Positions 6,799-43,746 of a stretch of 52,893 bases of DNA are shown here, piece by piece. The DNA lies in assembly GCA_017883235.1 (NCBI GenBank), contig JADGNY010000032.1:1-52893 (forward strand), given 5' to 3'. The stretch's first letter is position 1. Every line of letters begins with the position of its first letter. This DNA comes from Thermoanaerobaculia bacterium. GTDB lineage: Bacteria > Acidobacteriota > Thermoanaerobaculia > Gp7-AA8. The notes under the pieces are model-generated. The model made no database searches. It saw nothing but the letters and a program-made list of their open reading frames with translations, and was not told where the DNA came from. The position numbers were made by a program, and so were the translations under genes.

Positions 6799-7039
6799 GT
6801 ACCCCAGTGGGACACCTACCGTACCCCAGTGGGGTACACACCGTACCCCAGTGGGACACCTACCATACCCCAGTGGGTACGCACCTTCCCCCAGTGGGGT
6901 ACGCACCGTACCCCAGTGGGGTACACACCGTACCCCAGTGGGGTACACACCGTACCCCAGTGGGGTACACACCGTCCCCCAGTGGGGTACCCATCGTCCC
7001 CCAGTGGGGTACGCACCGTCCCCCAGTGGGGTACAGAGT
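6799..7039. repeat. 22-bp tandem array of palindromes (11 copies)
   Basis: Eleven head-to-tail units of 22 bases (one of 21) share the core GTACCCCAGTGGGGTAC, an odd-length palindrome with one central base, followed by a 5-base spacer such as ACACC. Units differ by one to a few bases. The period is not a multiple of three and every frame stays open, so open frames here are artefacts of the repeat. It fills most of the 568-base gap between the hydrolase and the ABC ATPase genes; 7040-7161 holds nothing I recognise. Confidence 0.95.
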
Positions 7040-7161
7040 TAACCCGTGGGGCCACACCTTCGTTTTTCGACCACGTGTAAGTTCCTGAAAGGGAAGTGCT
7101 TCTCGCTCTCTGATGCGACGACTGACGAGAGTCGCGGGTTATTCGCCTCAGCATTGTCGTT

Positions 7162-9637: not shown

Positions 9638-12600
9638 GCGAATTCGAGTGGTCATGAAGCCGGCGGATGTTCGCAGGCGTATGAGCGCATTGACCGAGCA
9701 CGTCAGCGCGGAAGACTATAAGCGCCTCGACAGGCTCCTAGCTGCCTTCGCGAACAATCCCCGGGCGCGGCTCTCGGATTGCCTGGCGGTGGTCACGACA
9801 GGCAGGAAGGGAGAAGACCAGCTCGCGAGCTTCCGGGCTTTTCGTCAACGGCTGGCAAGTGGTGCGAAAGCGGCGGGCCTCGGTTGGACTCTGGAGGTCG
9901 ACACGAAGAAACGCTCGGAGCCGGCCGACAGGGAGTGCTGGTTTCTGGCGCCTCCCTACGACAGAGCCGCGGAAAGCGCCGCCGAGCTCTCCCGACAGGA
10001 GACGGCTGTCATCCAGCAGCAGCGTTTCGTCCCCCAGCGTGGCCTGCCGACCATGGGGCGCCGCCCGGTGCGGTTCTTTGTTTCGTACGACGATAAACAC
10101 GACGCCAAGAGCGCAACGTCGTTGCTCGACGATCTCGAAGCGAGTTTTCGCGGGTCGAGCAGCTACGAATATGAGGTCTGGCACCAGGGGAAGATCCTCG
10201 CCGGCGAGATCAAAGGCCGCCAGATCGAGGAGGCACTCGACCGATCGGACTTCGGTCTCCTCCTGCTCAGCATTCATCGGCTTGGAGGCTCCGGGGCGGA
10301 TGTCGATCTGCGCGAGCTGATCGAGTCTGCGCGGCCGCTCATTCCGGTGGCGCTCGGCAATCTGTCCGAGCGTTTCGACCTTCATGGCATAGCGGATCAT
10401 CAGATCTTTAGATCGAACCGTCGGAGCTTGTCTGAATGCCGAGGTAAGGCCCAGAAGGAGGCGTTCACCAAAGAGCTCTTCGAGGAGATCGAAAGAAGGC
10501 TCGATCGGTGGTTCCAGGAGACGGAAGGGCAACCCATCCAGCGGACGACCGGGATCTACGGCCTCGCTCGATACGAAGACATGGCTCGGGGGCTGATGTC
10601 CGCTTACGAGCGCAGGGCGTTGAGCGACTTCGTCCACGCCAGCGGCGCCGAAGCGAACCTTGCGGAGGATCTTGACCGCGTCAAACCGGATCGTCCCGAG
10701 GCGCGCGCGGTCGACATGCTCGACGCACTCGAACGTTGGGTTCGCGACCCCGCTGGCACGCGCTACGCCGCGATCCTCGGCGAGTACGGAATGGGAAAGA
10801 CCACCCTGCTCCGGAAGCTGACCGACGACCTTTTGCGTCAGCGCGAGTCCAACCCCTCCCTCCCGCTGCCGATCTTCATCGATCTCCGGTACTACAGCGA
10901 AACGATCCAGAAAGAGGCGCGGGTCCCGAGAAACATCGAGGCGCTGTTGAAGGAGGCATTGGACCGTGCCTGGCGAGGCACGGCTCCCGAAGTCGATCCT
11001 GAGGACATCCTTCGCCTCGTCCGTGAGGAAGGGGCGATCCTGATCTTCGACGGCCTCGACGAGAAGCTCGTTCACCTGACCGAGGCGCAGGGACAGGCGT
11101 TCATCCGAACGCTCTGGCAGGCGTTGCCGCCCCGCGGTTCTGATGAGCGACAGAGCGAAGCGGTTTCCGGCAGGTTGATCTTCTCTTGCCGGTCGCACTA
11201 CTTCAAGACGCTCCGATCTCAGAGTGCCCTGTTCCTCGGCGAGGATCGCGAAGGGCTGCGCTCGACCAGCTATCGGGCCTGGGTCCTTCTCCCCTTCGAC
11301 GAACAGCAGATCCGCGTCTACCTTGCCAACGTCCTCGGTGAAGAGAGGGTCGACGCGGCCATGGAGCTGTTCAGCGCCGTTCACAATCTTCGCGACCTTG
11401 CGCAACGCCCCTATCTGCTCTCGGTGATCGTCGACCACATCGACGCTCTCGAACGCAAGCGAATGCGAGGGGAGACCGTCCAGGGGGTGACGATTTACAA
11501 CCTCCTTGTGGAGCGCTGGCTCGAACGGGACAATGGAAAGCACAAGCTCCGGCCGGAGGACAAGCTCCGGGTGATGGAAGAGATTGCAGGGACGATGTGG
11601 GCTCAGGGTGACCGATCCTGGCCGTGGGAACGGCTGCGGGACTGGCTCGGCAGGTGGCTCGCCGGAGACGAAGTACTTCGGACGCGCTACGCGAACGTAG
11701 CCTCAGAGGTTCTCGAGGAGGACATCCGAACTGCTACGTTCGTGCTCCGGCCTGATGACAGCGAGCGGGAGTTTCGCTTCGCACACACCTCACTGCTCGA
11801 GTTCTTTCTGGCGAAGCATCTGTTCCGAGCGTTAGCGCACGGCGTGACCGAGCCTTGGAACATGACCGCTCGTGTGAATCCTTCGCCGGAGGCATTCGAC
11901 TTCCTCGGTCAATTGATCATGATCCAGTCCGATTCGCGAATCCGCGAGAGGTGCCTCGCGACAATGTCCACGCTGCTGAGCGGAGACCATCCAGATGCTG
12001 CCGGTGCGGCCTTTCGCTACTCGGTGCTGGCGATTCAGCGAGGATTGCCTACGCCACGACCTCCTCGCGTCGATCTGCGTGGCGCCGATCTGTCGAACCT
12101 CGTCGTTCGAGGACGTTCCGCGGCCGAGCGTTTGAATCTGAGCCGCGCCGACCTCTCCGGCGCAAAGCTCGTCGGATCGGTCTTGCAGGACGTCGACCTC
12201 TCGGGCGCGAGTCTCGCCGGCGCGCTTGCCGAGCGCGCCGAGTTTCAGAGCGTACTGGCGAGGGACATCGACGTGAGCCAAGCTGACCTCACCGGCGCGA
12301 TCTGGCGTGGATGTGACGCACGCGGGTTGCGCGGCGTCGAGTCCGCCAAATGGTACGGCTGTCGCTGGATCGATTCCCTCATCGACCTCGAATCGCTTCC
12401 ACCTCGGTTCGGGCGATTGGGCACGGTGAGCTCTGGACCCGCTTGCGCCAGCGGAATTCCGATCTTCGATGCTCGCGAGCAGACCGTCCAACGTCCGGTG
12501 CTCGGTGCCGCATCGGGCCACAGCGGTGAGGTCTCTGCGTGTGCGTGGTCGCCAGACGGGACGCAACTGCTCTCCGGCTCAAAGGACCAGACGTTGAAGG

Positions 12601-13748: not shown

Positions 13749-14022
13749 ACCACGCCCGAACCCTCTCCCCCGGCGCCAGATACAGCTTCTCTCCCGCCTT
13801 CACATCGAACGCCGCATACCACTCGTCGATATTGCGCACCGTGGCGGCGCGGTACTGCCCCGGCGCGTGCCCATTGGTCATCAGCGAGTTTCGCAGCGCC
13901 TCGGGGCGGAGTTTCGAGCGCCAGACTTGGGCGAAGGCGAGGAAGAAGCGTTGGTCGCCTTTGAAGCCGGAGGCTGAGGGGGCGGCTTGTCGCCGTAGGC
14001 GCGGCGGTAGCCGTCGTAGGAG
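13749..14022 (-). pseudogene. 3' tail remnant of an M13 peptidase gene
   Basis: About 274 bases align almost end to end with 15455-15730, the last 90 or so codons of the intact M13 peptidase gene. I estimate nearly 90 percent identity by eye. The remnant has at least one single-base deletion (near 13985), so the frame is broken after the YDGYRRAYGDK segment. It has no catalytic region and no start. It probably remains from a second M13 paralog whose body was lost when the DinD segment arrived. It accounts for most of the gap 13704-14046. Confidence 0.9.
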
Positions 14023-14046
14023 ATAGCTACCGGGGCGCCCTCCACT

Positions 14047-14511
14047 TCACGACGCTTTTCTAGCTTCTGTTTCGAGGCGGCCAAAGTCCGCTGGTGGCTC
14101 ATCCACAGCTTGGGTACCGGCGGCGTGGCCCATCTCCAACAGACCGAACGTGTTAGGTGCAGTACGGACGAATACCTCGCCTTTGCGCGCGTACGCCCCA
14201 AGCGCGCTTGTCAGGGACGCTCGCGCGGCTCTGTCGTCACGTTTTCCGAGTCCTTTCAGGACGTCGTTGATATGGAGCGGGCGCCCGGCGTCGATGATCA
14301 TCTCGCGGGTACGCTTCGCGGCGCTTCCCGCGCGGAACATGGCTTCAGGCCGGGTCTCCGAGCTTTCCCGAGGAAGCGATTTCAGCATGTCCTGGTAGGC
14401 CTGGATGTAAGCCTCGGCGCCTGCTTTTGCCAGCTCGAATGCCCGCTCCATCGCCACCAGCTCGGCTTGCTTCTTCTCGATCTTCCGAATGGCATCTTCG
14501 CGAAATCCCAT
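14047..14511 (-). CDS. Winged-helix (HARE-HTH-like) protein
   Basis: Encodes 154 residues from an ATG at 14511. An N-terminal coiled-coil-like helix (EDAIRKIEKKQAELVAME) is followed by a segment resembling a HARE-HTH or winged-helix fold: EMIIDAGRPLHINDVLKGLG, then a SLTSALGAYARKGEVFVRTA turn and FGLLEMG. This suggests DNA binding. It is divergent from DinD, with a 112-base shared promoter region. Base composition is visibly lower in GC than the flanking M13 sequence, as expected for acquired DNA. The family assignment rests on pattern only. Confidence 0.65.
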   Translation of the reverse strand: MGFREDAIRKIEKKQAELVAMERAFELAKAGAEAYIQAYQDMLKSLPRESSETRPEAMFRAGSAAKRTREMIIDAGRPLHINDVLKGLGKRDDRAARASLTSALGAYARKGEVFVRTAPNTFGLLEMGHAAGTQAVDEPPADFGRLETEARKAS

Positions 14512-14591
14512 GTTTTGCTCCGAGACCAATAGTAACAAAGCGTGTGAGATGTGTAAAGATACAACTAGCTGTAACTCGAGCGAGCGTGACG

Positions 14592-14597
14592 TATAAT
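14592..14597 (+). promoter_or_regulatory. Possible -10 element of the dinD-like gene
   Basis: An exact TATAAT hexamer lies 26 bases before the ATG in an unusually AT-rich intergenic stretch for this window. The position for a -35 box shows only a weak match. No LexA-type operator that I know is visible. Confidence 0.45.
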
Positions 14598-14623
14598 CGT
14601 CATGGCTTGCGAAAGGCGGCAGA

Positions 14624-15433
14624 ATGAGTGACATCACAAAACGTGAAGCCGGCATCTTTGATGAGATCCGCAGGGTTACTTCTGCTGGTGCAGAGTACTG
14701 GCACGCGAGAGAGTTGCAGCCGTATCTCGGTTACCTGACTTGGGAGAACTTCGAGAAAGCCATACGGCGAGCAATCGATGCCTGCGAGGGGTCCGGGGTG
14801 CCATCGTCACATCAATTTCGTGAGACCACGAAGTTGATACGACACGCGAATGAGGGACAACGGAGCGTGAAAGACTACCAACTTTCGCGATACGCCTGTT
14901 ACCTAATCGCGATGAACGCCGAGCCAACTATAGCCAAGGTCGCACTTGCGCAATCCTACTTCGCTGTCCAGACGCGCCGGCAGGAGCTAGCCGACGCGAT
15001 GGCAGAAGACGATAAGCGGCTTGAGATCCGCGAGCGGGTGAGGGAATCGAGTACCGCGCTGAACAGCACCGCCAGCCGTGCGGGGGTTACTGAGTTCGGC
15101 TTCTTTCACGACGCCGGATACCGAGGCATGTACAACGCATCTCAGCGCACGGTCAAGAAAATGAAGGGGATCAAGCCGCACGAAGAGTTTCTCGACTGTG
15201 TGGGACCGCTCGAGCTCTCGGCAAACGAATTCCGCATCAGGCTCACCGAAGAGAAGATTCGAGTTGATGGCGTGAAGGGTCAGGACCGGGCTGAGGGAGT
15301 CCACACCTCCGTCGGAGCAAAGGTCCGAAAAACTGTGATCGAGGAGATCGGGCGCCCGCCGGAGAAACTCCCTCGTGCAGAATCGATCAAGAAGATCGAG
15401 GGACGAAAAAGGAAAGAGTTGAAGGGCAAGTAG
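14624..15433 (+). CDS. dinD: DNA damage-inducible protein D (DinD)
   Basis: Encodes 269 residues, full length for DinD. Recognisable segments are the N-terminal GAEYWHARELQPYLGYLTWENF, described here as AEYWHARELQPYLGY followed by TWENFEKAI; then the LSRYACYLIAMNAEP core and SYFAVQTRRQELA, which are hallmarks of the family. The ATG is preceded by GAAAGG. In E. coli, DinD is an SOS gene product that modulates RecA filaments. Whether this copy is SOS-controlled is not visible. Lower GC than its neighbours and its placement between an M13 tail remnant and an intact M13 gene point to horizontal transfer. Confidence 0.9.
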   Translation: MSDITKREAGIFDEIRRVTSAGAEYWHARELQPYLGYLTWENFEKAIRRAIDACEGSGVPSSHQFRETTKLIRHANEGQRSVKDYQLSRYACYLIAMNAEPTIAKVALAQSYFAVQTRRQELADAMAEDDKRLEIRERVRESSTALNSTASRAGVTEFGFFHDAGYRGMYNASQRTVKKMKGIKPHEEFLDCVGPLELSANEFRIRLTEEKIRVDGVKGQDRAEGVHTSVGAKVRKTVIEEIGRPPEKLPRAESIKKIEGRKRKELKGK

Positions 15434-18374: not shown

Positions 18375-19910
18375 ATGCGCCGTCTCCCCTTCATCATCGC
18401 TCTCACGATCATCTCTCTCACCACGTCCGTCGCCTTCGGACAAACTCTCGGGGCTGTTCTCACCGCATCGCAGGAAACTCCGGCGACAACGACCCCGGGC
18501 TTCGGCAATGCCACGGTGACGTTCGATTCGACCCAGACGAACATCACCGTCACCATCACAGCGGCCAACCTCGGCAGCCCCATCAACAACTTTCATATCC
18601 ACAGAGGAGCAGCGGGGGTACCCGGCTCGGTGGTCATCAATCTGATCGGGCTCGGAGGAGCGTTCAACAACGGCACGATGACAGTCACGGTTCCCATCAC
18701 GTCCGCCCTCGCGCAAGAGATTTTGCAGAACCCTGCCAACTTCTACGTGAACGTGCACACGGTGGCATTTCCCAACGGCGCCATTCGCGGCCAGCTCGCG
18801 TTCGCGAGCGGCGGCCCGGTTACCTATTCCGCTGAGTTGCGTGGCGCGAACGAGGTTCCTCCGACCGGCAGCGCGGCGTTCGGCGGCGCGTTCATTACGT
18901 TGGATCCGAACAACAATATTCTGACGTGGGAAGTGAACACGAGCGGGATCGGAACCGCGACGCTCTCGCACATTCACAGGAGCCCGGCCGGCGTCAGCGG
19001 ACCGGTTCTCATCAATTTCGCGACGTCGCCATCGCAAATCCCGAATGGCCGCACGAACGGAAGCATCGACATCAGCAGCCTGGACCCCTCGGACAAGACG
19101 GCGCTGGCAAGTGCATCGACCGCGAGCGGTTACTACGTCAACGTCCACTCCACCGCCTTCCCAGGCGGCGAGGTCCGCGGGCAGCTCGCTGCCGCGAATG
19201 AGTACGACATCCCGGTTGCCGGCCACATTACGAACGGACTGGGTCAGACGTTTGTCACGGACGTCCGGATCTTCAATCCGTCGTACACGGCGAACGTCGT
19301 GGCCCTGGTCGAATATCTGACGGGAGGTGCGACGGCGATGGCTTCGCTGGTGGTGAACCTGGCGCCGCGGGGAACGGCCGTACTCGACGATATCGGCGGG
19401 TCGAGCGGACTCAATGTCTCCGGAACGATCGGCGGTCTGCGGATTTCGAGTGCTTTACAACTTGTCGCGACCTCGCGCATCTATGCGGACCTTCGTTCGT
19501 CCGGCAAGGGAACGCTCGGGCAGTTCGTTCCGGCGCAGCCGCGGGCCAATGGACTCCGCCGAGGAGTGCTGCCGCAGTTGTCGAACCACACGGACCAGAG
19601 CAGTGGTTTGCGTACGAATATCGGATTCTTCAATCCCAATCCTTCCGCGGTGACGGTGCGCCTCGAGCTGCGCGACGGAACGGGAGCGATCGTCGGGCAG
19701 AACGTGATCGCGCTGGCGGCGTTGTCGCAGCAGCAGAACGCGATCGGGATCTATTTCCCGGGAGTCGATTTCACGAACGCCGCGAATCTGACGATGAGCT
19801 TCGACGCCGCTGCGCCGGTCTTCGCCTACGCGGCAGTGAACGACAACGTCTCCGCCGATTCGAGCTTCGTGGCAGCGATCGCCGACGTGGGGGTTGCGGC
19901 GAATCAGTAG
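18375..19910 (+). CDS. Secreted protein with two CHRD domains
   Basis: Encodes 511 residues with a signal peptide (MRRLPFIIALTIISLTTSVA, ending FGQ). Two CHRD domains follow, at about 25-145 and 150-280. Each has the NFHIHRGAAGVPG or LSHIHRSPAGVSGP motif and the closing FYVNVHTVAFPNGAIRGQL or YYVNVHSTAFPGGEVRGQL. The C-terminal 230 residues hold two similar segments (VRIFNPSYTANVVALVEYL and IGFFNPNPSAVTVRLELRD) that look like beta-sandwich domains found in exported Acidobacteriota proteins. The start is preceded by GAGGAGGAAAGT. Function unknown; an extracellular or surface location is likely. Confidence 0.93.
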   Translation: MRRLPFIIALTIISLTTSVAFGQTLGAVLTASQETPATTTPGFGNATVTFDSTQTNITVTITAANLGSPINNFHIHRGAAGVPGSVVINLIGLGGAFNNGTMTVTVPITSALAQEILQNPANFYVNVHTVAFPNGAIRGQLAFASGGPVTYSAELRGANEVPPTGSAAFGGAFITLDPNNNILTWEVNTSGIGTATLSHIHRSPAGVSGPVLINFATSPSQIPNGRTNGSIDISSLDPSDKTALASASTASGYYVNVHSTAFPGGEVRGQLAAANEYDIPVAGHITNGLGQTFVTDVRIFNPSYTANVVALVEYLTGGATAMASLVVNLAPRGTAVLDDIGGSSGLNVSGTIGGLRISSALQLVATSRIYADLRSSGKGTLGQFVPAQPRANGLRRGVLPQLSNHTDQSSGLRTNIGFFNPNPSAVTVRLELRDGTGAIVGQNVIALAALSQQQNAIGIYFPGVDFTNAANLTMSFDAAAPVFAYAAVNDNVSADSSFVAAIADVGVAANQ

Positions 19911-32636: not shown

Positions 32637-34367
32637 ATGAAACGGCTTCTCCCCCTCGTTCTCTTCCTTGCCGCGTTTGCCACCTTCGCGGCGGACTCTC
32701 AACCGGTTCATGTTTTCGTGGTCGGGACGACCGATCTGCATGGATCGTATGACAGTCATGTCGCTTCGAAGAATGCGCCAGCATACGGCGGGCTGCCGCT
32801 GATCGCGGGATATCTCGAAATACTGCGCGCCAATCATGAACGTGTCATCGTCGTCGACTCCGGCGATCTTTTCCAGGGGACGCTGGAATCGAACTTCTTC
32901 GAAGGGGAACCGGTCGTCAAAGGGTACAACGCCCTCGGATACGCCGCCGCGGCCGTTGGGAATCACGAGTTCGACTATGGTCCCATCGGTCCCGATTCCG
33001 TGGCCCGTCTGCCGGGCCAGGACTCCCTCGGTGCACTGAAGAAGAACGCCAAAGAGGCGAAGTTCCCGTTCCTCTCGGCGAACCTGACGGAGAAGGCGAC
33101 GGGCAAGACGCCGTCGTGGGCGAAGCGCTACACGATCGTAGACGCCGGCGGCGTGAAGGTCGGCATCATCGGTCTCTCCACGCCGGAGACGCCGGCAGTC
33201 ACGACCTCGGCGAACGTGGCCACGCTTGCGTTCGGCGATCCGGTGGCGGCGACGGTGAGCGCGGCAAAGGAGCTTCGCGCCGCCGGCGCCGAAGCGATCG
33301 TGGTCATCGCGCACATGGGCGGCCGCTGCAGGAACATCGAGCTGAATCCGGAGGACTCATCGAGTTGCGAGAAGGATCAGGAGGCGATGCGGTTTCTCCA
33401 GGCGCTGCCGAAGGGGACGATCGACGCCTACTTCGCCGGCCATACGCACTCGCAGATGCGTCACTACATCAATGGTGTTCCGGCGCTGCAGCCGTCACCG
33501 AACGGCCGCGAGATCGCCATCCTCGACATGACCATCGACCCGTCGCAGCACAAGGTGACGAAGACGGAGATGGGACCGCTGACGATGATCTGCGCGCAGG
33601 TTTACGAGAAGACGGAGACGTGCGATCCGAAGAAGGCGCCTGCCGGCGCATCGCTCGTGCCGCGTATGTTCGAGGGGAAGGCCGTCACCGAGGCGCCAAA
33701 GGTCGCCGCCATCTTCAAGCCGTATCTCGAACAGGTCGCGGCGAAGAAACAGCAGGATCTCGGCATCCGCACCACCGACCGATTCAAGCGCGCCTACTAC
33801 CGCGAGTCGCCGCTCGGCGATCTGCTGACGGATGCGATGCGTACATACATGAAGGCCGACGTCGCCTTCCTCAACTCGGGCGGCATCCGCACCGATCTGC
33901 CGGCAGGGGCGCTTATCTACGCGAATCTGTTCGACGTCTCGCCGTTCGATAACTTCCCGGCGGTCGTGACGATGACCGGCGCTGAGTTGCGGCGCATGCT
34001 GGAGATCACGTCGGTCGGCGGAGGACGCGGGATCCTGCAGACCAGCGGACTCCGTTACACGTTCGACGAAGGGCGCGATGCCGATAAGCCGGCGGCGCAA
34101 CGGAATCGTCTCACTGAGGTTGCGCTGGCCGACGGACATCCGCTCGATCCGGCAGGGCTCTACCGCGTGGCGACGGTCGATTTCCTCGTCACCGGCGAGG
34201 GGCTCGATCCGGTGATGAAACAAATTCCCCCCGAGCGGGTGAAAGTCGACTACGTCCTGCCGATCCGCGAGCTGCTGATCGATGCTCTCAAAGCGATGCC
34301 GCAGCCATTGGTGCCGAAGTTGGATGGAAGGATCAGTGTGTTGAATCCTGTGGGGAGCGGGGAGTAG
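32637..34367 (+). CDS. Exported 5'-nucleotidase / UshA-like phosphatase
   Basis: Encodes 576 residues with a signal peptide (MKRLLPLVLFLAAFATFA). The metallophosphatase domain shows TTDLHGSYDSH, DSGDLFQGT, VGNHEFDYG and GHTHSQ, which bind two metal ions. The C-terminal 5'-nucleotidase domain (ESPLGDLLTDAMRTYMKADV, NSGGIRTDLPAG) binds the nucleotide base. It works in the periplasm on nucleotides or sugar nucleotides. A decayed copy of its last 165 bases is at 42339-42505. Confidence 0.95.
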   Translation: MKRLLPLVLFLAAFATFAADSQPVHVFVVGTTDLHGSYDSHVASKNAPAYGGLPLIAGYLEILRANHERVIVVDSGDLFQGTLESNFFEGEPVVKGYNALGYAAAAVGNHEFDYGPIGPDSVARLPGQDSLGALKKNAKEAKFPFLSANLTEKATGKTPSWAKRYTIVDAGGVKVGIIGLSTPETPAVTTSANVATLAFGDPVAATVSAAKELRAAGAEAIVVIAHMGGRCRNIELNPEDSSSCEKDQEAMRFLQALPKGTIDAYFAGHTHSQMRHYINGVPALQPSPNGREIAILDMTIDPSQHKVTKTEMGPLTMICAQVYEKTETCDPKKAPAGASLVPRMFEGKAVTEAPKVAAIFKPYLEQVAAKKQQDLGIRTTDRFKRAYYRESPLGDLLTDAMRTYMKADVAFLNSGGIRTDLPAGALIYANLFDVSPFDNFPAVVTMTGAELRRMLEITSVGGGRGILQTSGLRYTFDEGRDADKPAAQRNRLTEVALADGHPLDPAGLYRVATVDFLVTGEGLDPVMKQIPPERVKVDYVLPIRELLIDALKAMPQPLVPKLDGRISVLNPVGSGE

Positions 34368-34425
34368 CTGTTGCGGGCAGCCCAGGATGACCGTGAAGTG
34401 ACGTGAGAGTAGTCTGCCAGTGCGT

Positions 34426-35169
34426 TCAGGGAAGTGGCAACCTGAATTTTTCAGAGAAGTCCTGGCGATATCCCGCGGTCAGCGGTCCGCCGATGAGGTC
34501 GAGGACCTCGCGCGTCAGCTCGATCAGGGGAGAAACCGATCCATCCCGGAATAGTCGCGCCAACGCGGTCTGCGCTCGATCGAAAAAAACCGCATCGAGT
34601 CGCTTGACCGATCGAACGAGATAACGCCCCGGGCCGTTAAGCAACTGTCCGTGGCACCGCAAGAAGATGTCCATGATCCTCATATACAGGTCCATTGCGA
34701 TGATCCATCGTTCACTCGTGTCGGCGCATCGTTCCAGATCCGATACGACGGCGCTCACGTAACGGCGCGGCACATCCCAGCTCTGTGGAGGAGGCGGCCC
34801 CGAAGCGATCACCTGACGGGCGACTTCTTTCAACTTCGACGCAAGCTCGCAGGGCTCCGGCAGTACCCGTGCTTGATCGACTTCGCCCGCCAAAATGGAA
34901 AAGCCATTCTTCTGCTCCATTCGCATCATGAAATGCAGGGTTTCCGGATCGTGAACGTGAGCATCGAACAGAAAGCCGTTCGATGAAAATGTTTCGCGAT
35001 ACGCGTTGCCGACCCTGCTCAATATGACGATCACGTCGATATCGGATCCGGCATCTCCCCGGCCAAAGGCGTTGGAGCCAAAGAAGAAACAAAAGAGCGG
35101 CTGGCCATACCGTGCCGAAAGCGTATCCAGGATCAGCTGAGGGTCAGGTGGGTTGAGGTTGGACGCCAT
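34426..35169 (-). CDS. Nucleotidyltransferase-fold (MNT) protein
   Basis: Encodes 247 residues. The N-terminal nucleotidyltransferase motif is complete: FFFGSNAFGRGDAGSDIDVI (GSx10DxD), with a possible third acid in FDAHVHDPE. The C-terminal half is helical and resembles an accessory or HEPN-like bundle (RWIIAMDLYMRIMDIFLRCH). It starts 9 bases after the MurE-like gene and is the last gene of a five-gene operon. It may adenylate or otherwise modify a small molecule or protein. A free-standing MNT antitoxin role is less likely, given the context. Confidence 0.8.
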   Translation of the reverse strand: MASNLNPPDPQLILDTLSARYGQPLFCFFFGSNAFGRGDAGSDIDVIVILSRVGNAYRETFSSNGFLFDAHVHDPETLHFMMRMEQKNGFSILAGEVDQARVLPEPCELASKLKEVARQVIASGPPPPQSWDVPRRYVSAVVSDLERCADTSERWIIAMDLYMRIMDIFLRCHGQLLNGPGRYLVRSVKRLDAVFFDRAQTALARLFRDGSVSPLIELTREVLDLIGGPLTAGYRQDFSEKFRLPLP

Positions 35170-35178
35170 GAAGACTCG

Positions 35179-36663
35179 TCAGTTGGATGGCCCATCAGGA
35201 CGCCGGAAGGCCTCCGCCCCGGATCGACCCAGAATCTCGTACAGCGCGTCTGTCGCTACCTGTCGATCGGCGTTCCTGAGCTCTGTCCCCATCGCGCGTT
35301 TCCCCATGAGGACGACGATGCCGTCGGGCAACGCCTCACGAATGGCGGCGCCGATCGCGATGGGACGATGAATGATCGACTTCCAGCGATCAGGTGCCGC
35401 ATGGCGCAGACCATTGAGCATGTCCATCATGATCGAGGCCGGATGCTCGTCCCGAGGATCGTCACTGGTGAGAATACAGACGTCGGAGCCGTTCATCGCC
35501 GCCCTCGCTCTCAATGGCCGCAGTCCCCTGTCGGCTCCACCGGCGCAGCCGATGACAGAAACGATTCGACGGGGTCCGGCGAACTCCCTCACCGCGGCCA
35601 GTGAGGCCTCGATGTTCGCCGGCGTGTAGGGTTGATCGAGATAAACATCGACGTCTACCGGTGTCGGTAGCCTTTCCAGTCGCCCAGGCAGCGGGCGCAC
35701 GTTCTGCAATTGGACTTCGGCGTCTGCCGATGGCATGACGCCACACACGATCGCGGCGGCCGCCAGGACATTCATGGCATTGTGCTGCCCGATCAACGGG
35801 AAACGAAGGTCGTGGCCATTGAGCCGCATGGAGATGCCTGCGCGGTCGGCCGCGTAGAGCTCCGGCGTGACATCCGCGGCGCCAAAACCGAACGTCACCA
35901 CTCGGCCCAACGACGAACTGGCCAGCTCGCGGCCGGCCGGATCGTCGCTGTTGAACGCACAGAGCGTCGTCGATGACTTATGAAAGGCCGGATCCGTGAA
36001 CAGACGGCGGTTGGAGGACATATGAGCGTCACCACCGGCGGTGCCGTGGTTCGTGAAGGCAAGCGCTTCGAACTGCAGTCCGAGGAGCCGTTCCTGTGCA
36101 ATGCCGTGCGAAGGGAGCTCGAGAACGGCATGGGTACCACCCTGCTCGCGAAGCGCTGCAAGAAAGCCATGGATCGACAGCGAGTCGGATGTCCAACTGG
36201 CGGCAGACCGCTCGGAATCGGGTAAACGGTGTACCAGAGAGCTGATCAGACCGGTCCTGACGCCGGACGCGCGAAGAGCACCCTCAATGAGATGACATAC
36301 GGTGGTTTTCCCCTTCGCACCCGTGACGCCGATGAGCGTGAGATACCGATGAGCATCGCCGAACATCCGCGAGCATGTGCGCGCGTAGGCCCGATTGACG
36401 TCGTCTACGATTGCATAGGGCATGTTCGGGGGAAGCGTTGCCTCTTCTTCGTCTCCGGCCTCCAGCACGACGTACCTGGCTCCCTGGCGAATCGCCTCCG
36501 CCGCGGAGATACGGAACTGCAACGAACGCAATTTGAAAAAGAAGGTGCCCTCCGCGATCTGGCGGGGCTCGACGAGAACCGACAGGATGTCCGGTTCGCC
36601 GCCCGCGCGGAGAATCTTCGTTCCTTCCAGGAGCTGGTGAAGGGGCAGCATACCGGTCATCAT
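35179..36663 (-). CDS. Divergent MurE-like Mur ligase
   Basis: Encodes 494 residues. The N-terminal domain follows MurE (VEPRQIAEGTFFFKLRS), the P-loop is GVTGAKGKTT at 112-121, and later motifs are LELPSHGIAQERLLGL, IGQHNAMNVLAAAAI and TSDDPRDEHPASI, the position where MurE binds the added amino acid (DNPR in diaminopimelate enzymes). The usual FTNLSxDHLDYH stretch is replaced by FTNHGTAGGDAHMSSN, so this is not the ordinary housekeeping MurE. It should couple an amino acid to a carboxylate using ATP. Its start overlaps the upstream stop (ATGA). Confidence 0.85.
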   Translation of the reverse strand: MMTGMLPLHQLLEGTKILRAGGEPDILSVLVEPRQIAEGTFFFKLRSLQFRISAAEAIRQGARYVVLEAGDEEEATLPPNMPYAIVDDVNRAYARTCSRMFGDAHRYLTLIGVTGAKGKTTVCHLIEGALRASGVRTGLISSLVHRLPDSERSAASWTSDSLSIHGFLAALREQGGTHAVLELPSHGIAQERLLGLQFEALAFTNHGTAGGDAHMSSNRRLFTDPAFHKSSTTLCAFNSDDPAGRELASSSLGRVVTFGFGAADVTPELYAADRAGISMRLNGHDLRFPLIGQHNAMNVLAAAAIVCGVMPSADAEVQLQNVRPLPGRLERLPTPVDVDVYLDQPYTPANIEASLAAVREFAGPRRIVSVIGCAGGADRGLRPLRARAAMNGSDVCILTSDDPRDEHPASIMMDMLNGLRHAAPDRWKSIIHRPIAIGAAIREALPDGIVVLMGKRAMGTELRNADRQVATDALYEILGRSGAEAFRRPDGPSN

Positions 36664-37934
36664 TTGTGATGCGCCTCGGCTTGGCCACAGAAGCGTTGTG
36701 CGAGCTCGTTCAAAATGGCAAACCCCTTAAGCGATACCGGCAGCCGGCGCTGAAAGAGATGCTCACCGTCGTCCCACCAGAAGAGCAACTCATCGTGCTT
36801 CGCTTGTACGCCGAGAAACGCCGCCTGGCCTTGCAACGAAGCATGGCCGACCTCGACGACAGGCCCGCCATGGCCGCGCCGGTCGACGTCGGTTGCTTCA
36901 ATGCGCCTTCCGTCGAGCTCATTAATCCACGCCGCTGCAAACCCGTCCGCAGTCGGCACGACCTGAACTTCCCGGAATTGTCCGGTCACCCGGACATCGT
37001 GGCGGAGTGACGACCATTCCGCATGATCCGGTTGCGCCGGGTCAATGACCGCTGCGTCGATCGTTCCGGTATCGTTCGACAACGCGATGTTCGCATTCCG
37101 CGCCGCGACGATCGCAAGGCGGCCGGCAGGATCGATGGCCGCGTCGAACTGCTGAATGCGCACGTTGCGCAATGTGATCGCATCGACGTGCCCTTCGTCC
37201 GCCAGAAGGTAGAGGGAAAGCCCATCGTGATTCGACAAGAGTGCGATCCGCTTGTCCTGCAGCGGTTGGGCAACCATCCTGCTCGACCTTCTGAAATCCA
37301 TAGGTGGCAAGTGCCACGATCTTGATACTCCGCTCCAGTCCACCTCCCTGGCGATCGTCTCTTCCGGAAGGTAGGTGAGCTCGATCGCACGCGGCTTCTC
37401 ACCCGGAATCACGATCGTCTGCCAGGAATTCGAACGAGTCGTGTCCGTCGCCGCCGGCGGCTTGACATGCGTGGCGCGGGATCCGTCCCTCTTGACGAAG
37501 GTTGTCGCGGCTGCGTCGTCACTGTCGTCGAGTGTTGCGTACCACCAATCCGTCCCCGTGACGACGATCCCATCGCTCAGGGGACTCTCCGTCCAGGTTG
37601 CACGTGGTGTGAGAGGAATTCGAACCCGCACCGGTTCGTCCATTCCTGCCGCTCCGACTTTCGCGATTTCTCGATAGACCGCGCGGCCGCGGCTGGATGG
37701 GACCCCAACCGGAGCTCCCGAGCCCCAATTCGTTGTGATGACGAGGGTTTCCTCATCGGTCGCTGCAACATAATGGATTGGATTTTTATGGATGGGAGTG
37801 GGGCGGACGACGTAGGTGGTCTGCGTAGTGACGAAGCTCGCATTCGTCATTTGCAGCAGAGCACACCAGAGAGCGCCGGAGGAAAGAAGACGGAAGACTT
37901 CCAATAGAAACCTGATGACGATCTCGAGTGCCAT
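36660..37934 (-). CDS. Secreted protein of unknown function
   Basis: Encodes 424 residues. The N-terminus (LEVFRLLSSGALWCALLQMT) is hydrophobic and signal-like. The rest is rich in beta strands with repeated ETLVITTNWGSGAP, DGIVVTGTDWWYATL, IALLSNHDGLSLYLL and DGFAAAWINELDGRR segments, reminiscent of a beta-propeller. No catalytic motif is recognised. It is the third gene of the operon, 72 bases after the Cys-rich gene with a strong hairpin in between, and overlaps the MurE-like gene by 4 bases. Confidence 0.75.
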   Translation of the reverse strand: MALEIVIRFLLEVFRLLSSGALWCALLQMTNASFVTTQTTYVVRPTPIHKNPIHYVAATDEETLVITTNWGSGAPVGVPSSRGRAVYREIAKVGAAGMDEPVRVRIPLTPRATWTESPLSDGIVVTGTDWWYATLDDSDDAAATTFVKRDGSRATHVKPPAATDTTRSNSWQTIVIPGEKPRAIELTYLPEETIAREVDWSGVSRSWHLPPMDFRRSSRMVAQPLQDKRIALLSNHDGLSLYLLADEGHVDAITLRNVRIQQFDAAIDPAGRLAIVAARNANIALSNDTGTIDAAVIDPAQPDHAEWSSLRHDVRVTGQFREVQVVPTADGFAAAWINELDGRRIEATDVDRRGHGGPVVEVGHASLQGQAAFLGVQAKHDELLFWWDDGEHLFQRRLPVSLKGFAILNELAQRFCGQAEAHHK

Positions 37935-37962
37935 GGAGTTACCTGCAAAATTGCCCCGGAGC

Positions 37963-37990
37963 CGGGCTGCGGAGCAAGCTCCGCAGCCCG
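37963..37990 (-). terminator. Strong hairpin between Cys-rich gene and downstream genes
   Basis: Perfect 13-bp arms (CGGGCTGCGGAGC and its complement) around a two-base loop, in the 72-base gap. Only a short TTTT follows on the reverse strand, so it may be a partial terminator or an mRNA stabiliser, which would let the small upstream gene be expressed above the rest. Confidence 0.55.
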
Positions 37991-38006
37991 CGTGCAGTAT
38001 GCACTT

Positions 38007-38315
38007 TTAGCTGCACATACCCCAGCCCCAGCAGAAATAGTCGTCCCATGCGTATTGCTCGCAGTAGCCGTACTCACCCGGGCACGGTTGCGGTGGGTTG
38101 TTTTGGCAGTAGCCGCTGGTTTGACACCACTGACCTTCGTCCATGCCGCCCCAGCAAGCGGTGACTCCTTCATCCATGCCGGACCAACACATGCCCGAGT
38201 TGCCGTAATTCGGGTCTGTCAGACACGTATCACACGCGAGCGCATTGGTCGCCACTGTGGCTGCCACGGCCCCGGCCGCAGCTAACGTCAACATCCTCAA
38301 CTTCTGTGTGTCCAT
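38007..38315 (-). CDS. Secreted cysteine-rich small protein
   Basis: Encodes 102 residues with an excellent ribosome binding site (AAAGGAGAAGG) before the ATG. A signal peptide (LRMLTLAAAGAVAATVATNA, ending LA) is followed directly by a mature part of about 75 residues with ten cysteines, many Trp, Tyr and Gly, and a doubled CW(S/G)GMDEG motif. The last residues are FCWGWGMCS. The cysteines probably form disulfides after export. I know no family with this pattern. It is the second gene of a five-gene operon. It could be a structural peptide, a secreted ligand or a modified-peptide precursor. Confidence 0.8.
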   Translation of the reverse strand: MDTQKLRMLTLAAAGAVAATVATNALACDTCLTDPNYGNSGMCWSGMDEGVTACWGGMDEGQWCQTSGYCQNNPPQPCPGEYGYCEQYAWDDYFCWGWGMCS

Positions 38316-38360
38316 ACCTTCTCCTTTCGTTCTTCACTTGTTCCCTGGGATTCGTCGCAC

Positions 38361-41300
38361 CTACCGCTGCGCGGAGGTGTCGCCGCTTTTCATACTGATT
38401 TCCTGGCTCTCCCCGGCAGCGAGACGGACCTGGGCTACTTTCGGCAGTGCCGCCGCCCCGCCGCCCGCGAGCGCAAAGTAGGCTCCCGCCGAATCGATCC
38501 GCACCACGGACCAGGCTCCCGCGGGAACCTTGGGAAGCGTGAATGGACCATCCATCCTGCGGAATTTGAGCGCGGCCCATGAGAGATCGAAAAGCCCGCC
38601 GTCCGGAGCGAGGAGCCAGAAACGATCCTTGTTTCCGCGGTCCGTCCAATTCGTAAAGGTCACGGCGGCGGTGGCCGAAGGGAGTGTCAAGTTGGCATCG
38701 CTGACCGGAGCGGTGATGAATGTGCCGATTGCGCCATCGGCCGCGGTCACGCCGCACCGCAGCCGCTCGGGCGCCGGCTTCGGGAAGTGAATGGAAAACT
38801 TACCCCAGGAATCGGCCGCGGCGTAGCCAGTGCGAGGAATGTTGTCACTCCCGGTGTAGATACAATCTACCCATGCCATTCCGGCGGGGTTCCCGGCGCC
38901 GTCAATCACGGATCCTTCGAGCGTGGAACCGTCATCGAGGTGAAGAGTGATCGAGGCAGGAGTTGCCGAAGCGATCGTGACCGTTTTTTCGGCAACCGCT
39001 TCATCTTTTCCGCGCGCCTTCACCAGCCACATTCCATCCTGCAGCTCGCCGATCGTCACCTCGCCGATCGAGTCTGTCCGCGCTCTTCGCTCGAGCCGAA
39101 GTAGCTGGTTCTGTTCACTACTGTCACCAAGCATGGTGGCGGTGATCTGCACTTCGGATTCAGGCCGATCGCCGGAAAATACACGGACGGAGAGCGAGCC
39201 TTCAGGCAGTTCGATGCGGACGTCACGAGAAGCGTGATCGAATTGCATCGGGGCAAGCTGTGTGTCTGCGTCCGGCGGCCGTCGCCGCGCTGCAACGGCG
39301 TAATAACCGGGACGGGGCAGGAGTGTCTTAAAGGCCCCGTCCTCGTGCGACATCACTCGGCGAACGATGGCCCCTGGTCCGGGAGGGTCGGTAAACGCGA
39401 TCGAGGCGGACAGTCCGCCGCCATGTGATGTGATGTGACCGGACACGACGAGAGGCTCGATCACCGGTTCGAGCTTTTTTTTGTCGCCCGACTCAATCTT
39501 CAGAGTGGTGACGTCGATCGGCTGGGTCAGGTTGTCCAGACGAACGATCGCGATCACCTGCCAGGATCCCGGAGTTACGCCGGTAAACACGGCGTCCTGA
39601 TGATTGGAAGTCAACTCGACAGACCGGAGATCGGCATTGCTGGCCTTTTTTTCCGGTTGAAGGACGACGGCGATGATCTCGGCATTCGCGTTCTCATTCT
39701 TGAAGCTGTCTTCGAAACGCGGAATCACGGTGATCGATCCAGCCTCCGGCAATGGCAATGGATCAATGATCTCGCGCTTCCCCGGCTCGAGAGTCCGGGT
39801 GACGGTTCCGGCGAGTTTCGTCGAATCCTGAGCCTGGAACGTGATTGTTTCACCGACTGGCAGGCCTTCCATCGTAAGCCAGCCGTCTGCTCGCGCGGTC
39901 CCCTTGGCAACTGCCAAGAACTCGCCGGATCCGCGCTCGACGGAGGCCGTTACCATAGCCTCGGGAACATTGGTTCCGTCCGTCTTATGAACGACGTGAA
40001 CCTGCACCGACGCCGCGCCCTTGAGGCGATGTGTTCCAAGCCAGACCTGTTCGCGGGCGTGAGCCGTTAAACGGACAACCACGGGTGAGAAGCTCTCAAA
40101 GCGCAGCAGCAGCGCGCGGCAGCCGACCAGCACCGGGAGAGCGATATCTCCGCTCTTCCGCACATTGACGGGCAACACGAAACTCTTGTCGCCCTCGCAT
40201 TCGTCGAATCGGGCGTTGCCGTGAGAGGGAAGCGGCGCCTTTTCGGGAACGCTCACGCGCAACGTTCCTTCCGCCTTCGGAAACTTGATTCCCTCGGCCG
40301 CCGGTCCCTGTTCCTGATTCTCCGCGGGCTTTGCTCGCATGAGACCCAGAATGACGTCTCCCTCAGTCGTGAAGAAAACGTCGGACGCAGCATCTGCGTT
40401 CGCGTATAGAACCCGCCCACCGGTCACATTTTCGGACGCTGCCGGGACCTCCGTGTATCCATTGGCCGTGCGCATGAACGCACGCAAGCCGCGCACCTCC
40501 GTCTTGAAGGGCACGCGGATGCGGACGTTTTTCGGCGCCAGCGGCGGGGCATCCGGCAAGGAAACCTTGATTCCCTCGTTGCCGTTTCCGCTCAGGGTTA
40601 CGTGGCGAAGAGTGACAGGTGCCGTAAATCGCCTCGGATCCGGCCAGGTGGCTACGAGGTCGTATTGGCCGGCGGGCATCGATGTCCATTCGACCGACGT
40701 TGTCTGCGCTTCGCGCGCCCAGACCCGGTCTCGCCACTCGACGGGAACGGATGTATCGATGTGGGCCGACGGAACGAGCGTAAGCAGCAGGTCGGGAGCA
40801 GGGCGATTGGTCAGAACGCGCAGCGACGATCCCCGCCGCAGAGTGACCGGCGGCATTTCGCTTTTTTTCGGATCCCACGAAACCCAGGCCGCTTCGTACC
40901 CGGGGGCCTCTACGAGCAAGGAAAGGTCTTTGACGGGTACCCCGAGTTTCCACCAGCCGTTCTCATCCGTTGTTGTCCGCAGGCGGACAGTTTGCCGCGC
41001 CAGATCGCTCATCACACCGAGCAGGGTGGGCGGGACGACCCGGGGATGAGACACCGTGGCACCCTTGACCGGCCGGCCTGCGGCATCGACAACGGACCCG
41101 GTGAGTTCGAACTCTGGCAGCAACTCGAGTGAGGCTTGACTGTTTCTGCTGTTGCCGATTTCGACATTGCGCATCGCCAGATGGTAGGAGGGAGCCTCGG
41201 AGATCATCACATAACGGCCGGGAGGGATACCCTCCCATTTTACGGCGCCGTCAACAATTGCCTCGACGGTGGGGCGATGCGCCGGCTGGTCGAGTGCGAT

Positions 41301-41483
41301 CAACGCCACGTAGACGCCCCGAAGTGCGGCGTGGGTCGAGCGGTCGCTTACGGCGACGTCAAGGCCGCCTCCGATCGGCTGCGCAGCGTACGTACCGCTG
41401 CAGAAAACGACGAGGAGAATAAAAAGCCATAGCCGATGCCTCAATCGGAATCCGACCGCGCTGAGTTCCGTCCGAACCGTCAT
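38361..41483 (-). CDS. Large secreted carboxypeptidase-regulatory-like protein
   Basis: Encodes 1040 residues. I chose the ATG at 41483 because GGAGG lies 6 bases upstream and a signal peptide follows (HRLWLFILLVVFCSGTYAA). Many beta-sandwich domains of the carboxypeptidase-regulatory type follow, for example LTGSVVDAAGRPVKGATVSH, DENGWWKLGVPVKDLSLLVE and LEGSVIDGAGNPAGMAWVDC. No catalytic site or anchor is seen. It is the first gene of the operon and precedes the Cys-rich gene by 45 bases, so the two secreted products may work together. Confidence 0.9.
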   Translation of the reverse strand: MTVRTELSAVGFRLRHRLWLFILLVVFCSGTYAAQPIGGGLDVAVSDRSTHAALRGVYVALIALDQPAHRPTVEAIVDGAVKWEGIPPGRYVMISEAPSYHLAMRNVEIGNSRNSQASLELLPEFELTGSVVDAAGRPVKGATVSHPRVVPPTLLGVMSDLARQTVRLRTTTDENGWWKLGVPVKDLSLLVEAPGYEAAWVSWDPKKSEMPPVTLRRGSSLRVLTNRPAPDLLLTLVPSAHIDTSVPVEWRDRVWAREAQTTSVEWTSMPAGQYDLVATWPDPRRFTAPVTLRHVTLSGNGNEGIKVSLPDAPPLAPKNVRIRVPFKTEVRGLRAFMRTANGYTEVPAASENVTGGRVLYANADAASDVFFTTEGDVILGLMRAKPAENQEQGPAAEGIKFPKAEGTLRVSVPEKAPLPSHGNARFDECEGDKSFVLPVNVRKSGDIALPVLVGCRALLLRFESFSPVVVRLTAHAREQVWLGTHRLKGAASVQVHVVHKTDGTNVPEAMVTASVERGSGEFLAVAKGTARADGWLTMEGLPVGETITFQAQDSTKLAGTVTRTLEPGKREIIDPLPLPEAGSITVIPRFEDSFKNENANAEIIAVVLQPEKKASNADLRSVELTSNHQDAVFTGVTPGSWQVIAIVRLDNLTQPIDVTTLKIESGDKKKLEPVIEPLVVSGHITSHGGGLSASIAFTDPPGPGAIVRRVMSHEDGAFKTLLPRPGYYAVAARRRPPDADTQLAPMQFDHASRDVRIELPEGSLSVRVFSGDRPESEVQITATMLGDSSEQNQLLRLERRARTDSIGEVTIGELQDGMWLVKARGKDEAVAEKTVTIASATPASITLHLDDGSTLEGSVIDGAGNPAGMAWVDCIYTGSDNIPRTGYAAADSWGKFSIHFPKPAPERLRCGVTAADGAIGTFITAPVSDANLTLPSATAAVTFTNWTDRGNKDRFWLLAPDGGLFDLSWAALKFRRMDGPFTLPKVPAGAWSVVRIDSAGAYFALAGGGAAALPKVAQVRLAAGESQEISMKSGDTSAQR

Positions 41484-41545
41484 GTAAACCTCCGGAAAAA
41501 TTGAACGAGACACATACGTATCACACACCAAGGTACAAGGGCGTC

Positions 41546-41575
41546 ATCGTCGTCACGTGAAACCGTGACGACGAT
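41546..41575. promoter_or_regulatory. 12-bp-arm palindrome, possible operator
   Basis: ATCGTCGTCACG at 41546-41557 and its exact complement at 41564-41575, with a 6-base gap, lie in the 173-base region between the divergent operon start (41483) and the nucleotidyltransferase gene. Size and place suit a dimeric repressor site, but it could also be a plain hairpin repeat. Confidence 0.45.
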
Positions 41576-41656
41576 CACTCTTTCGGGAATGGCGGCGAAG
41601 CGGAGGAGGGGGCCGGCTCATTTTGCCTGACCAGGCCGGTGGTAGAGTGCGCGCCC

Positions 41657-42334
41657 ATGAATGACGCGCCATCCATTCTCATCGATCATTCGCTCGACCC
41701 TGTCGTCGAACTGTATAAGCGCGGCATCGATCGAACCGTGATCCGCGAGAATCTTCGCAAATCACACGAAGAGCGCCTTCTCAACCTTGAAAGAAAGATC
41801 GCCTTCATTCAGCGGTGTCATTCACCGGGTACGCCTACGGCGACGACTCAGTTCAGAGCCCTGCTCACCCTTCTCGGCGAGAATGACGCCTCGTTCGTCA
41901 TCGTCGGCGGCGTTGCGGCGGCATTGCATGGCGCTGCGCGGGTCACTTACGATCTGGACATCGTCTACGACCGATCCTTCGAGAATCTTCAACGCGTCGT
42001 TGCGGCGCTCGCTCCACTCAAGCCTTACATTCGCGATGCGCCTCCGGGATTGCCCTTTCGACTCGACGAAGAGACTTTGAAACGTGGTCTGAACTTCCAC
42101 TTCGCCACGCCGAAAGGCATGGTCGACCTCATGGGCGAGTTGGCAGGTGTAGGCCCTTTCCCTATTGTCCGCGCCCATGTGAACGAGGCCGATATTTCCG
42201 GGGCCCGATATCCGTTCCTCGACCTCGACGCACTGATCGTAGCCAAGAGAGTTCCAGGCCGAGCGAAGGATCTCGAGGCAATCGCGGAGCTCGAGACCAT
42301 CCGCGACGAGCTAGGATCGGCTTCCTCGTCATAG
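41657..42334 (+). CDS. Nucleotidyltransferase with fused N-terminal helical domain
   Basis: Encodes 225 residues from the ATG at 41657 (a GTG at 41639 is possible). Residues 1-55 form a helical segment (LDPVVELYKRGIDRTVIREN, LRKSHEERLLNLERK) that I recall as a separate small antitoxin-like protein in other genomes. The rest is a minimal nucleotidyltransferase: FVIVGGVAAALHGAARVTYD with LDIVYD carrying the metal-binding acids, ending in VPGRAKDLEAIAELETIRDE, as in AbiEii/DUF6036-type proteins. It is likely a fused toxin-antitoxin or defence gene. It lies directly upstream of the UshA tail remnant. Confidence 0.8.
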   Translation: MNDAPSILIDHSLDPVVELYKRGIDRTVIRENLRKSHEERLLNLERKIAFIQRCHSPGTPTATTQFRALLTLLGENDASFVIVGGVAAALHGAARVTYDLDIVYDRSFENLQRVVAALAPLKPYIRDAPPGLPFRLDEETLKRGLNFHFATPKGMVDLMGELAGVGPFPIVRAHVNEADISGARYPFLDLDALIVAKRVPGRAKDLEAIAELETIRDELGSASSS

Positions 42335-42338
42335 GCTG

Positions 42339-42505
42339 CGAAGGGCTCGACCGGTGATGAACCAGATCCCCGCCGAACGGATCAAAATCGAATTACGCCC
42401 GCCCGATCCGCGAGCTATTGATCGATGCGCTGAAAGTAATGCCGCAGCCGCTCGCGCCGAAGTTGGATGGGAGGATTACCGTGGTGAACCCGGGGGGGGA
42501 ATGGG
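42339..42505 (+). pseudogene. 3' tail remnant of a UshA-like gene
   Basis: About 165 bases align with the end of the intact UshA-like gene (34203-34365). Translation gives PVMNQIPAERIKIELRP in one frame and PIRELLIDALKVMPQPLAPK with LDGRITVVNP in another, compared with PVMKQIPPERVKVDYVLPIR and the matching end of the intact protein. At least one indel breaks it. It has no start and no catalytic part. Confidence 0.9.
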
Positions 42506-42675: not shown

Positions 42676-43746
42676 ATGACTACCATCATCCTCTTCGGCG
42701 GCCGCAGGGATGAGCGGCACGTTTCCGTGGCCTCGGCGCAGAACATCGTCCGGACGCTCGGAGCGCCGCTGGCCTGGTTCTGGGCGCCGAACGGCTCCGT
42801 CTGCGACGTGCATCCCGACGACCTGCTCGCGCATCCTCGGCCGTTCACCAACGATTTCCATCCGTCGCGGCCGGCGATCTGGCCCGATCTGGAGATGGCG
42901 CTTGATACCTTGCCGGTCGACGATCCGGTGTTCCTGCTGGCGCTTCACGGAGGTGAGGGGGAAAACGGAACCGTACAGCGAATGATGGAGGCGCGCGGCA
43001 TTCCGTTCACCGGATCGGGATCTGCGTCGAGTGCCGCGGCCTTCGACAAGGGGCGCGCCAAGGAGATCGTGAAGGAACGTGTGCGCGTCGCGGAGTCGCT
43101 CGTGGTTGATGACGTGAGAGCCATCGATCGGGCAGCCGCGGAGATGCTGGCGCGTTACGAGAAAATCGTCCTCAAGCCTCTTGCCGGCGGCTCATCGCGC
43201 GGGCTCTTTTTTCTCGAGCGGGGCGGGGAGATACCGGCCGTCGAGAACGTTCCCTATATCGTCGAGCAGTTCATCGCCGGCCGCGAGTTGACGGTGGGCG
43301 TTGTCGATGGCGAGGATGGCGCCATCGCACTGCCCGTCCTCGAGATCGAGACCGATCCCGGCCTTTCCTTCGACTATGAGGGGAAGTACCTCGGCAAAGG
43401 AACCCGGGAGATCTGCCCGGCGAGAATCTCCGAAGTTACACGCGACGAGGCGCAGACCGCCGCACTGGCCGTCCACGCTGCCCTCGGGTGCGATGGTTAC
43501 TCACGAACCGATCTGGTCGCCGCGGACGATGGCATCTACTTTATCGAGTTGAATACTCTGCCCGGCCTCACTACCGCGTCGCTCTTGCCGCAGGAGCTGC
43601 GCGAGGCGGGGATCGGGTTTCGGGAGTTTCTGGAACAGCAGATCGTGATCGCTCGGAAAAAACGTTTCACGCGGAGACGCGGAGGCGCGGAGAAAAACCA
43701 GATCGACTCCGCGTCTCCGCGCCTCCGCGTGAAACCGTTCCCCTGA
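42676..43746 (+). CDS. D-alanine--D-alanine ligase family
   Basis: Encodes 356 residues from the ATG at 42676. An ATP-grasp enzyme: LFGGRRDERHVSVASA at the N-terminus, LALHGGEGENGTVQRMMEAR with the serine-loop region, GSGSASSAAAFDKGRAKEIV, KPLAGGSSRG, and the metal site FIELNTLPGLT near the end. It would make D-Ala-D-Ala for peptidoglycan. The last 25 residues (from FTRRRGGAEKNQ) are read from an inverted repeat and are unlike the usual family end, so the gene has run into a repeat. It is not next to mur genes and may be a second, specialised ligase. Confidence 0.9.
   Translation: MTTIILFGGRRDERHVSVASAQNIVRTLGAPLAWFWAPNGSVCDVHPDDLLAHPRPFTNDFHPSRPAIWPDLEMALDTLPVDDPVFLLALHGGEGENGTVQRMMEARGIPFTGSGSASSAAAFDKGRAKEIVKERVRVAESLVVDDVRAIDRAAAEMLARYEKIVLKPLAGGSSRGLFFLERGGEIPAVENVPYIVEQFIAGRELTVGVVDGEDGAIALPVLEIETDPGLSFDYEGKYLGKGTREICPARISEVTRDEAQTAALAVHAALGCDGYSRTDLVAADDGIYFIELNTLPGLTTASLLPQELREAGIGFREFLEQQIVIARKKRFTRRRGGAEKNQIDSASPRLRVKPFP
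43664..43735. repeat. Inverted repeat overlapping the ligase 3' end
   Basis: Arms 43664-43692 and 43707-43735 (GTTTCACGCGGAG repeated as CGCGGAG units) pair over 29 bases with two mismatches. It encodes the C-terminal residues of the ligase and ends 11 bases before the stop codon. Confidence 0.8.

Follow-up and report, generated by a model that had tools for sequence, protein, structure and literature searches.

The window analysed here is a stretch of DNA of 52,893 nucleotides (contig JADGNY010000032.1) from a Thermoanaerobaculia bacterium, and between a 5′-nucleotidase gene and a D-Ala-D-Ala ligase gene it holds five genes on the minus strand, which are denoted by A to E. The features of the locus are as follows.

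32637-34367, plus strand: intact 5′-nucleotidase gene; its 3′ end, 34182-34367, is the left boundary of the insertion described below.
34426-35169, minus strand: gene E, a solo nucleotidyltransferase of 247 aa with GS-x9-DxD and a C-terminal helical region (weak Polbeta/NTP_transf_2 match).
35179-36663, minus strand: gene D, a degenerate MurE-type Mur ligase of 494 aa (Mur_ligase_M/C, TIGR01085).
36660-37934, minus strand: gene C, a secreted protein of 424 aa from a small family restricted to the bacterium's own family, f1 (alignment A2).
37960-37992, minus strand: GC-rich 12-bp stem-loop after the stop codon of gene B (folding energy z −2.8).
38007-38315, minus strand: gene B, an exported Cys-rich mini-protein of 102 aa with 10 Cys (sequence inspection).
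38361-41483, minus strand: gene A, a giant exported protein of 1040 aa with CarboxypepD_reg / transthyretin-like (Ig-like) repeats (Pfam, homolog alignment A1).
41657-42334, plus strand: gene F, a DUF6036-like nucleotidyltransferase at the far end of the insertion (Pfam E 1e-4).
42322-42498, plus strand: decayed partial duplicate of the 5′-nucleotidase 3′ end, the right boundary of the insertion.
42676-43746, strand opposite to genes A to E: D-Ala-D-Ala ligase gene.

It is noted that the gaps A-B, B-C, C-D and D-E are 45, 72, −4 and 9 bases, respectively, and that none of the five reading frames contains an internal stop; the ORF coordinates therefore agree with the earlier note on this DNA, in which five minus-strand genes with these gaps had been described. 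The 10-Cys exported peptide with a strong ribosome binding site that was claimed there is also found, with AAAGGAGAAGGT directly preceding gene B and with good Shine-Dalgarno sequences for both A and B. The statement that no cell-wall cluster surrounds the MurE-like ligase has to be qualified: D lies outside dcw, but the D-Ala-D-Ala ligase gene adjoins the cluster, which is because the insertion landed there. Judging from their spacing, genes A to E are presumably co-transcribed as an operon. The hairpin 3′ of B gave no terminator call in a consensus scan and the Rfam scan of the window gave no match; the hairpin is possibly an attenuator or an mRNA-stabilising element, and it could uncouple C-D-E from A-B. 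Moreover, the overlap of 4 bp between C and D suggests translational coupling, and D could thus matter to the module. The GC3 values are 0.67-0.72 across A to E versus 0.78-0.88 in the flanking housekeeping genes. These values, the family members of A and C and the dN and dS of C given below count as evidence that the reading frames are coding.

The cluster is an insertion of about 8 kb, 34368-42321, relative to a genome of the same genus (G297), where the 5′-nucleotidase and D-Ala-D-Ala ligase genes are about 70 bp apart versus 8.3 kb in the window. The 5′-nucleotidase gene is found in 13 of the 18 genomes of the family. The right boundary is marked by the remnant of about 178 nt of the nucleotidase end, 42322-42498, which has 79% identity to 34182-34355. 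No integrase was seen inside the insertion, which was probably gained horizontally. Gene F, of which the DUF6036 match is just under the cut-off, is divergent from A, and its end runs into the nucleotidase remnant.

Duplicated sequence also borders A-like genes elsewhere. On the bacterium's own contig C105 (L150), an A-B pair is flanked by direct repeats of 82-154 nt with 90-91% identity (13954-14105 / 19383-19534 and 14552-14633 / 19076-19155). In another genome (G254, L093), two partial copies of the 3′ end of rpoC flank an A homolog, and the intact rpoC is further left; the serial insertions behind rpoC are at 2853-3738, 6936-7836 and 11201-11826. It is observed there that each insertion leaves a copy of 0.6-0.9 kb of the rpoC 3′ end, that the first cargo is a gene pair with FG-GAP-like repeats (by eye) and that the second cargo is the A homolog without B. 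The rpoC insertions suggest a common route for gaining DNA at the ends of core genes. For the window and the loci that resemble it, recombination via a gene 3′ end brought by the incoming DNA would produce the duplicated ends.

Gene A matches Pfam CarboxypepD_reg with E 1e-23, and its family also has Big_1, DUF4198 and SpaA-like matches; domains of the CarboxypepD_reg/transthyretin-like kind make up many exported scaffolds. Near-full-length homologs with 28-31% identity are present in four genomes of the family together with two further copies in the own genome, and a profile of A also had hits in f4, f5, f9 and f11, which are further families of the class. Near-empty searches with E, B and D and a single-sequence search with C had first suggested an orphan cluster, a reading that was overturned by the searches with A and with profiles. 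Note that the export-type N-termini of A, B, C and the peptides considered below were called from hydrophobicity and by eye.

Gene B has a signal-peptide-like N-terminus followed by ACxxC, with 10 Cys after the signal sequence, and no family match in Pfam or NCBIfam; weak matches from the B search were discarded as chance after inspection. Being small, exported and Cys-rich, B is expected to be an oxidised mini-protein. Among A to E, no match to a known family of RiPP enzymes or exporters was found, and by inspection the signal of B is of the Sec type; a RiPP system here, if any, would be of a new type. Within f1, the peptides of the A-B pairs align over the signal peptide, the CxxC at its end and scattered later Cys. 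The idea that B evolves faster than A was rejected, since the pairwise identities show that B diverges about as fast.

Gene C likewise has no family match in Pfam or NCBIfam, and its family has 5 members in the 149 genomes of the class, all within f1. In another genus (G300), the C ortholog is 77% identical, with dN being 0.109 and dS being 0.356, implying purifying selection on C; the similarity to the window spans the whole of C and no more, with a different gene next. Another copy of C, without A or B, is present on the own contig C130. Single-sequence AlphaFold gave pLDDT of 37 for C and 42 for E, too poor for structure search.

The homologous trio A-B-C is found in two other genera (G303 and G307), with the C homolog directly 3′ of B in both, while A-B pairs occur also in G297 and on the own contigs C105 and C41. 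At all of these five loci, a small exported Cys-rich ORF lies at most about 50 bases 3′ of A or overlaps it. No C gene is present at the A-B pair of G297, nor was any found outside f1. To the neighbourhood in relatives, for which the earlier note had called, the answer is therefore twofold: A-B(-C) is kept in other genomes, while D and E are absent wherever the adjacent sequence is readable, with several of the loci ending at contig ends.

The pairing extends beyond the family. With a home-made and crude filter (ORF of 45-190 aa, hydrophobic N-terminus, at least 5 Cys, same strand, distance of at most 200 bases), a Cys-rich exported ORF was found beside 17 of 29 A-like genes versus 10 of 234 other long ORFs, giving a Fisher P of 1e-12 that ignores relatedness, the genomes being not independent. 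About 7 of the 10 control cases are peptides already counted, reached this time from the neighbour on their other side, or an A gene that is present twice because two loci overlap; with these set aside, the control rate is about 3 of 230 long ORFs. The pattern is present in families f1, f4, f5, f9 and f11. The peptide is downstream of A in f1 and upstream of A in most of the cases outside f1, and because of this difference the peptides next to A-like genes may not all be homologous, with more than one family among them. No such peptide stands alongside the A homolog of G254 and several weaker A-like genes. It should be noted that contigs often end near A-like loci, where partners can be missed. 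A search of the literature on the A-B gene pair found nothing relevant, which is weak evidence as subscription journals were outside its coverage.

A longer row was observed in a genome of another family (G313, L139, 2633-8470), consisting of a Cys-rich peptide, an A-like gene, a secreted protein of 474 aa, a second Cys-rich peptide and another secreted protein. This row is a longer version of the module, without similarity to C; the secreted neighbours at L129 and L139, when compared with C, showed no significant similarity. Separately, long ORFs of short tandem repeats were observed in the own genome, at L024 11476-12423 (LRFHPRA type) and L089 5648-6391 (EAVNSFP type), which are perhaps repeat arrays instead of genes.

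We now consider gene D, where the altered motifs that had been noticed earlier are confirmed by the motif comparison. Mur_ligase_M/C are matched in Pfam, while the scores fall below the cut-offs for TIGR01085 (247 bits versus 257.3) and NF001126 (250 versus 373). The P-loop is GAKGKTT, in agreement with the GTxGKT of MurE. At the carbamoylation site, D has SNRRLF versus AKR.LF of the homologs, with Asn in place of Lys; the carbamoylated Lys has been reported to be essential for MurD, MurE and MurF, while a glutamate takes its role in MurC and Mpl (PMC3060825). D has PSH for SSH, losing the first Ser and keeping the preceding Glu, and DQPY for DYAH, losing the His. Among the mDAP contacts that have been listed for MurE (PMC9434261), D has DDPR for DNPR, the former being the motif in Thermotoga maritima MurE (PMC9434261), and GKRAM for GKGHE, losing the equivalent of Glu468. 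Of the UDP-MurNAc contacts, TT158 is replaced by WT and S184 by P, and QxR192 is kept. With the carbamoylated Lys and other MurE residues lost, D is not an ordinary MurE. No close relative or ortholog of D was found in 149 genomes of the class and 396 of the phylum. The best match there, with 39% identity (G315), was set aside because it is located in a normal dcw cluster and is thus a canonical MurE. The bacterium's own canonical MurE lies in a complete dcw cluster on contig C188 and is 33% identical to D. D is thus distinct from the housekeeping MurE and has not been copied from it recently. In Mpl and MurT the fold stays active under changes of the Lys or the substrate, so that D may still use ATP to ligate a different substrate; it may also be inert.

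The relatives of gene E, with 22-30% identity and most of them full-length, are on plasmids of several phyla (Rhizobium, Streptomyces, Bacillaceae), standing alone or fused to an acetyltransferase. No Mur ligase was found beside these relatives in the annotated regions (two records are without annotation), nor any conserved neighbour in the annotated ones, and the genome searches found no ortholog of E. The score of E against the MntA model is 18 bits versus a cut-off of 60, and no gene beside E matched a HEPN toxin partner, so that the arrangement of the type VII (MntA/HepT) toxin-antitoxin is not seen here. We infer that D and E are passengers in the inserted DNA.

Based on these data, the reading that we favour, with about even confidence, is a composite one: the insertion carries a recurring exported A-B-C display module together with the passengers D and E. 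That A and B are found together repeatedly suggests an action of B on A or jointly with it, and we infer the function of the uncharacterised exported module from this as follows. A would be exported by Sec as an extended chain of domains of the Ig-like/transthyretin-like kind. B, of which the gene directly follows that of A, would be a disulfide-rich mini-protein, likewise exported by Sec, with C as a further secreted partner of A-B. In the envelope or outside the cell, A would then serve as a scaffold bound by B (and C), displaying a small oxidised Cys-rich head that would take part in binding, recognition or adhesion. D and E would be enzymes of the cytosol, either carried along with A-B-C or added to them, the module elsewhere needing neither, with D probably a Mur ligase no longer fitting mDAP addition and E putatively a nucleotidyltransferase for a small molecule or a protein.

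By contrast, the five genes could work as one system, with E activating a small group, D coupling it to B or to a surface glycan before export, and A and C carrying or displaying the product. The tight spacing, with C and D overlapping by 4 bp and D and E being 9 bases apart, speaks for such a system, and since the P-loop GxxGKTT and the Glu that precedes PSH are both retained in D, ATP use is possible, with MurT being a Mur-type enzyme acting outside mDAP addition. However, D and E are missing from the other readable A-B(-C) loci, D is without the carbamoylated Lys reported essential in MurD/E/F, the stem-loop stands between A-B and C-D-E, and the Sec-type signal is on B and not on D or E, so that we regard this system as quite unlikely. 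Hence, of the new secreted system that the earlier note had suggested, what stands is that A-B-C recur together in relatives, and what does not is the five-gene arrangement with modification by D and E. An opposite proposal, that repeated insertions at one spot joined five unrelated genes by chance, would explain that the locus is an insertion, that D and E are unique to it and that C stands alone on C130. If this proposal were true, it would be difficult to understand that the A-B-C order recurs in other genera, that A-B is found at two further own loci and that Cys-rich peptides are enriched at A-like genes; we consider it very unlikely.

The main functional rival is a module for antagonism, in which B would act as a bacteriocin-like toxin or inhibitor rich in disulfides, with A and C as its carrier, receptor or protector. 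Small Cys-rich exported products, several divergent copies per genome, the patchy occurrence and the insertion-borne position are consistent with it, but a dedicated exporter and a recognisable immunity gene are lacking, and the divergence of B, about equal to that of A, gives no sign of faster turnover; this role seems unlikely to us. Beyond the composite reading, it may be speculated, with low confidence, that an undescribed system is widespread in the class, where an Ig-chain scaffold would present diversified disulfide-rich mini-proteins and would spread via insertions duplicating core-gene 3′ ends, the Mur ligase and the nucleotidyltransferase having been recruited here for modification of the product.

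An important point is that, across at least five families of one class, a large exported Ig-like protein repeatedly comes with a Cys-rich mini-protein that belongs to no known family. Should this pairing be functional, a group of small orphan exported proteins would gain a partner that probably presents them. In addition, D is a candidate for a Mur enzyme that no longer works on the cell wall.

Finally, we compare the gene products with known systems. Like the solo nucleotidyltransferases (PF18765/PF01909, MntA-like N-terminus), E has the DxD core. Like MurE (TIGR01085 / PRK00139), D has the Mur ligase match (247-250 bits), the P-loop and the DDPR of the T. maritima type; it differs from MurE in being a second copy outside dcw, without the carbamoylated Lys, the first Ser of SSH, the His of DYAH and the Glu of GKGHE. 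Among solved structures, the plant PAP11 / MurE-like proteins match the sequence of D best, which is because of common MurE ancestry; PAP11 is also a paralog of MurE in which motifs are altered, and its role lies outside peptidoglycan, but it is a subunit of the plastid RNA polymerase and carries a long extension at its N-terminus, whereas D has neither the extension nor a link to transcription. As in the CarboxypepD_reg / transthyretin-like exported proteins (NOMO, SpaA-type folds), CarboxypepD_reg is repeated in A, which differs from them in having no TonB-barrel match and in being paired with a Cys-rich peptide.
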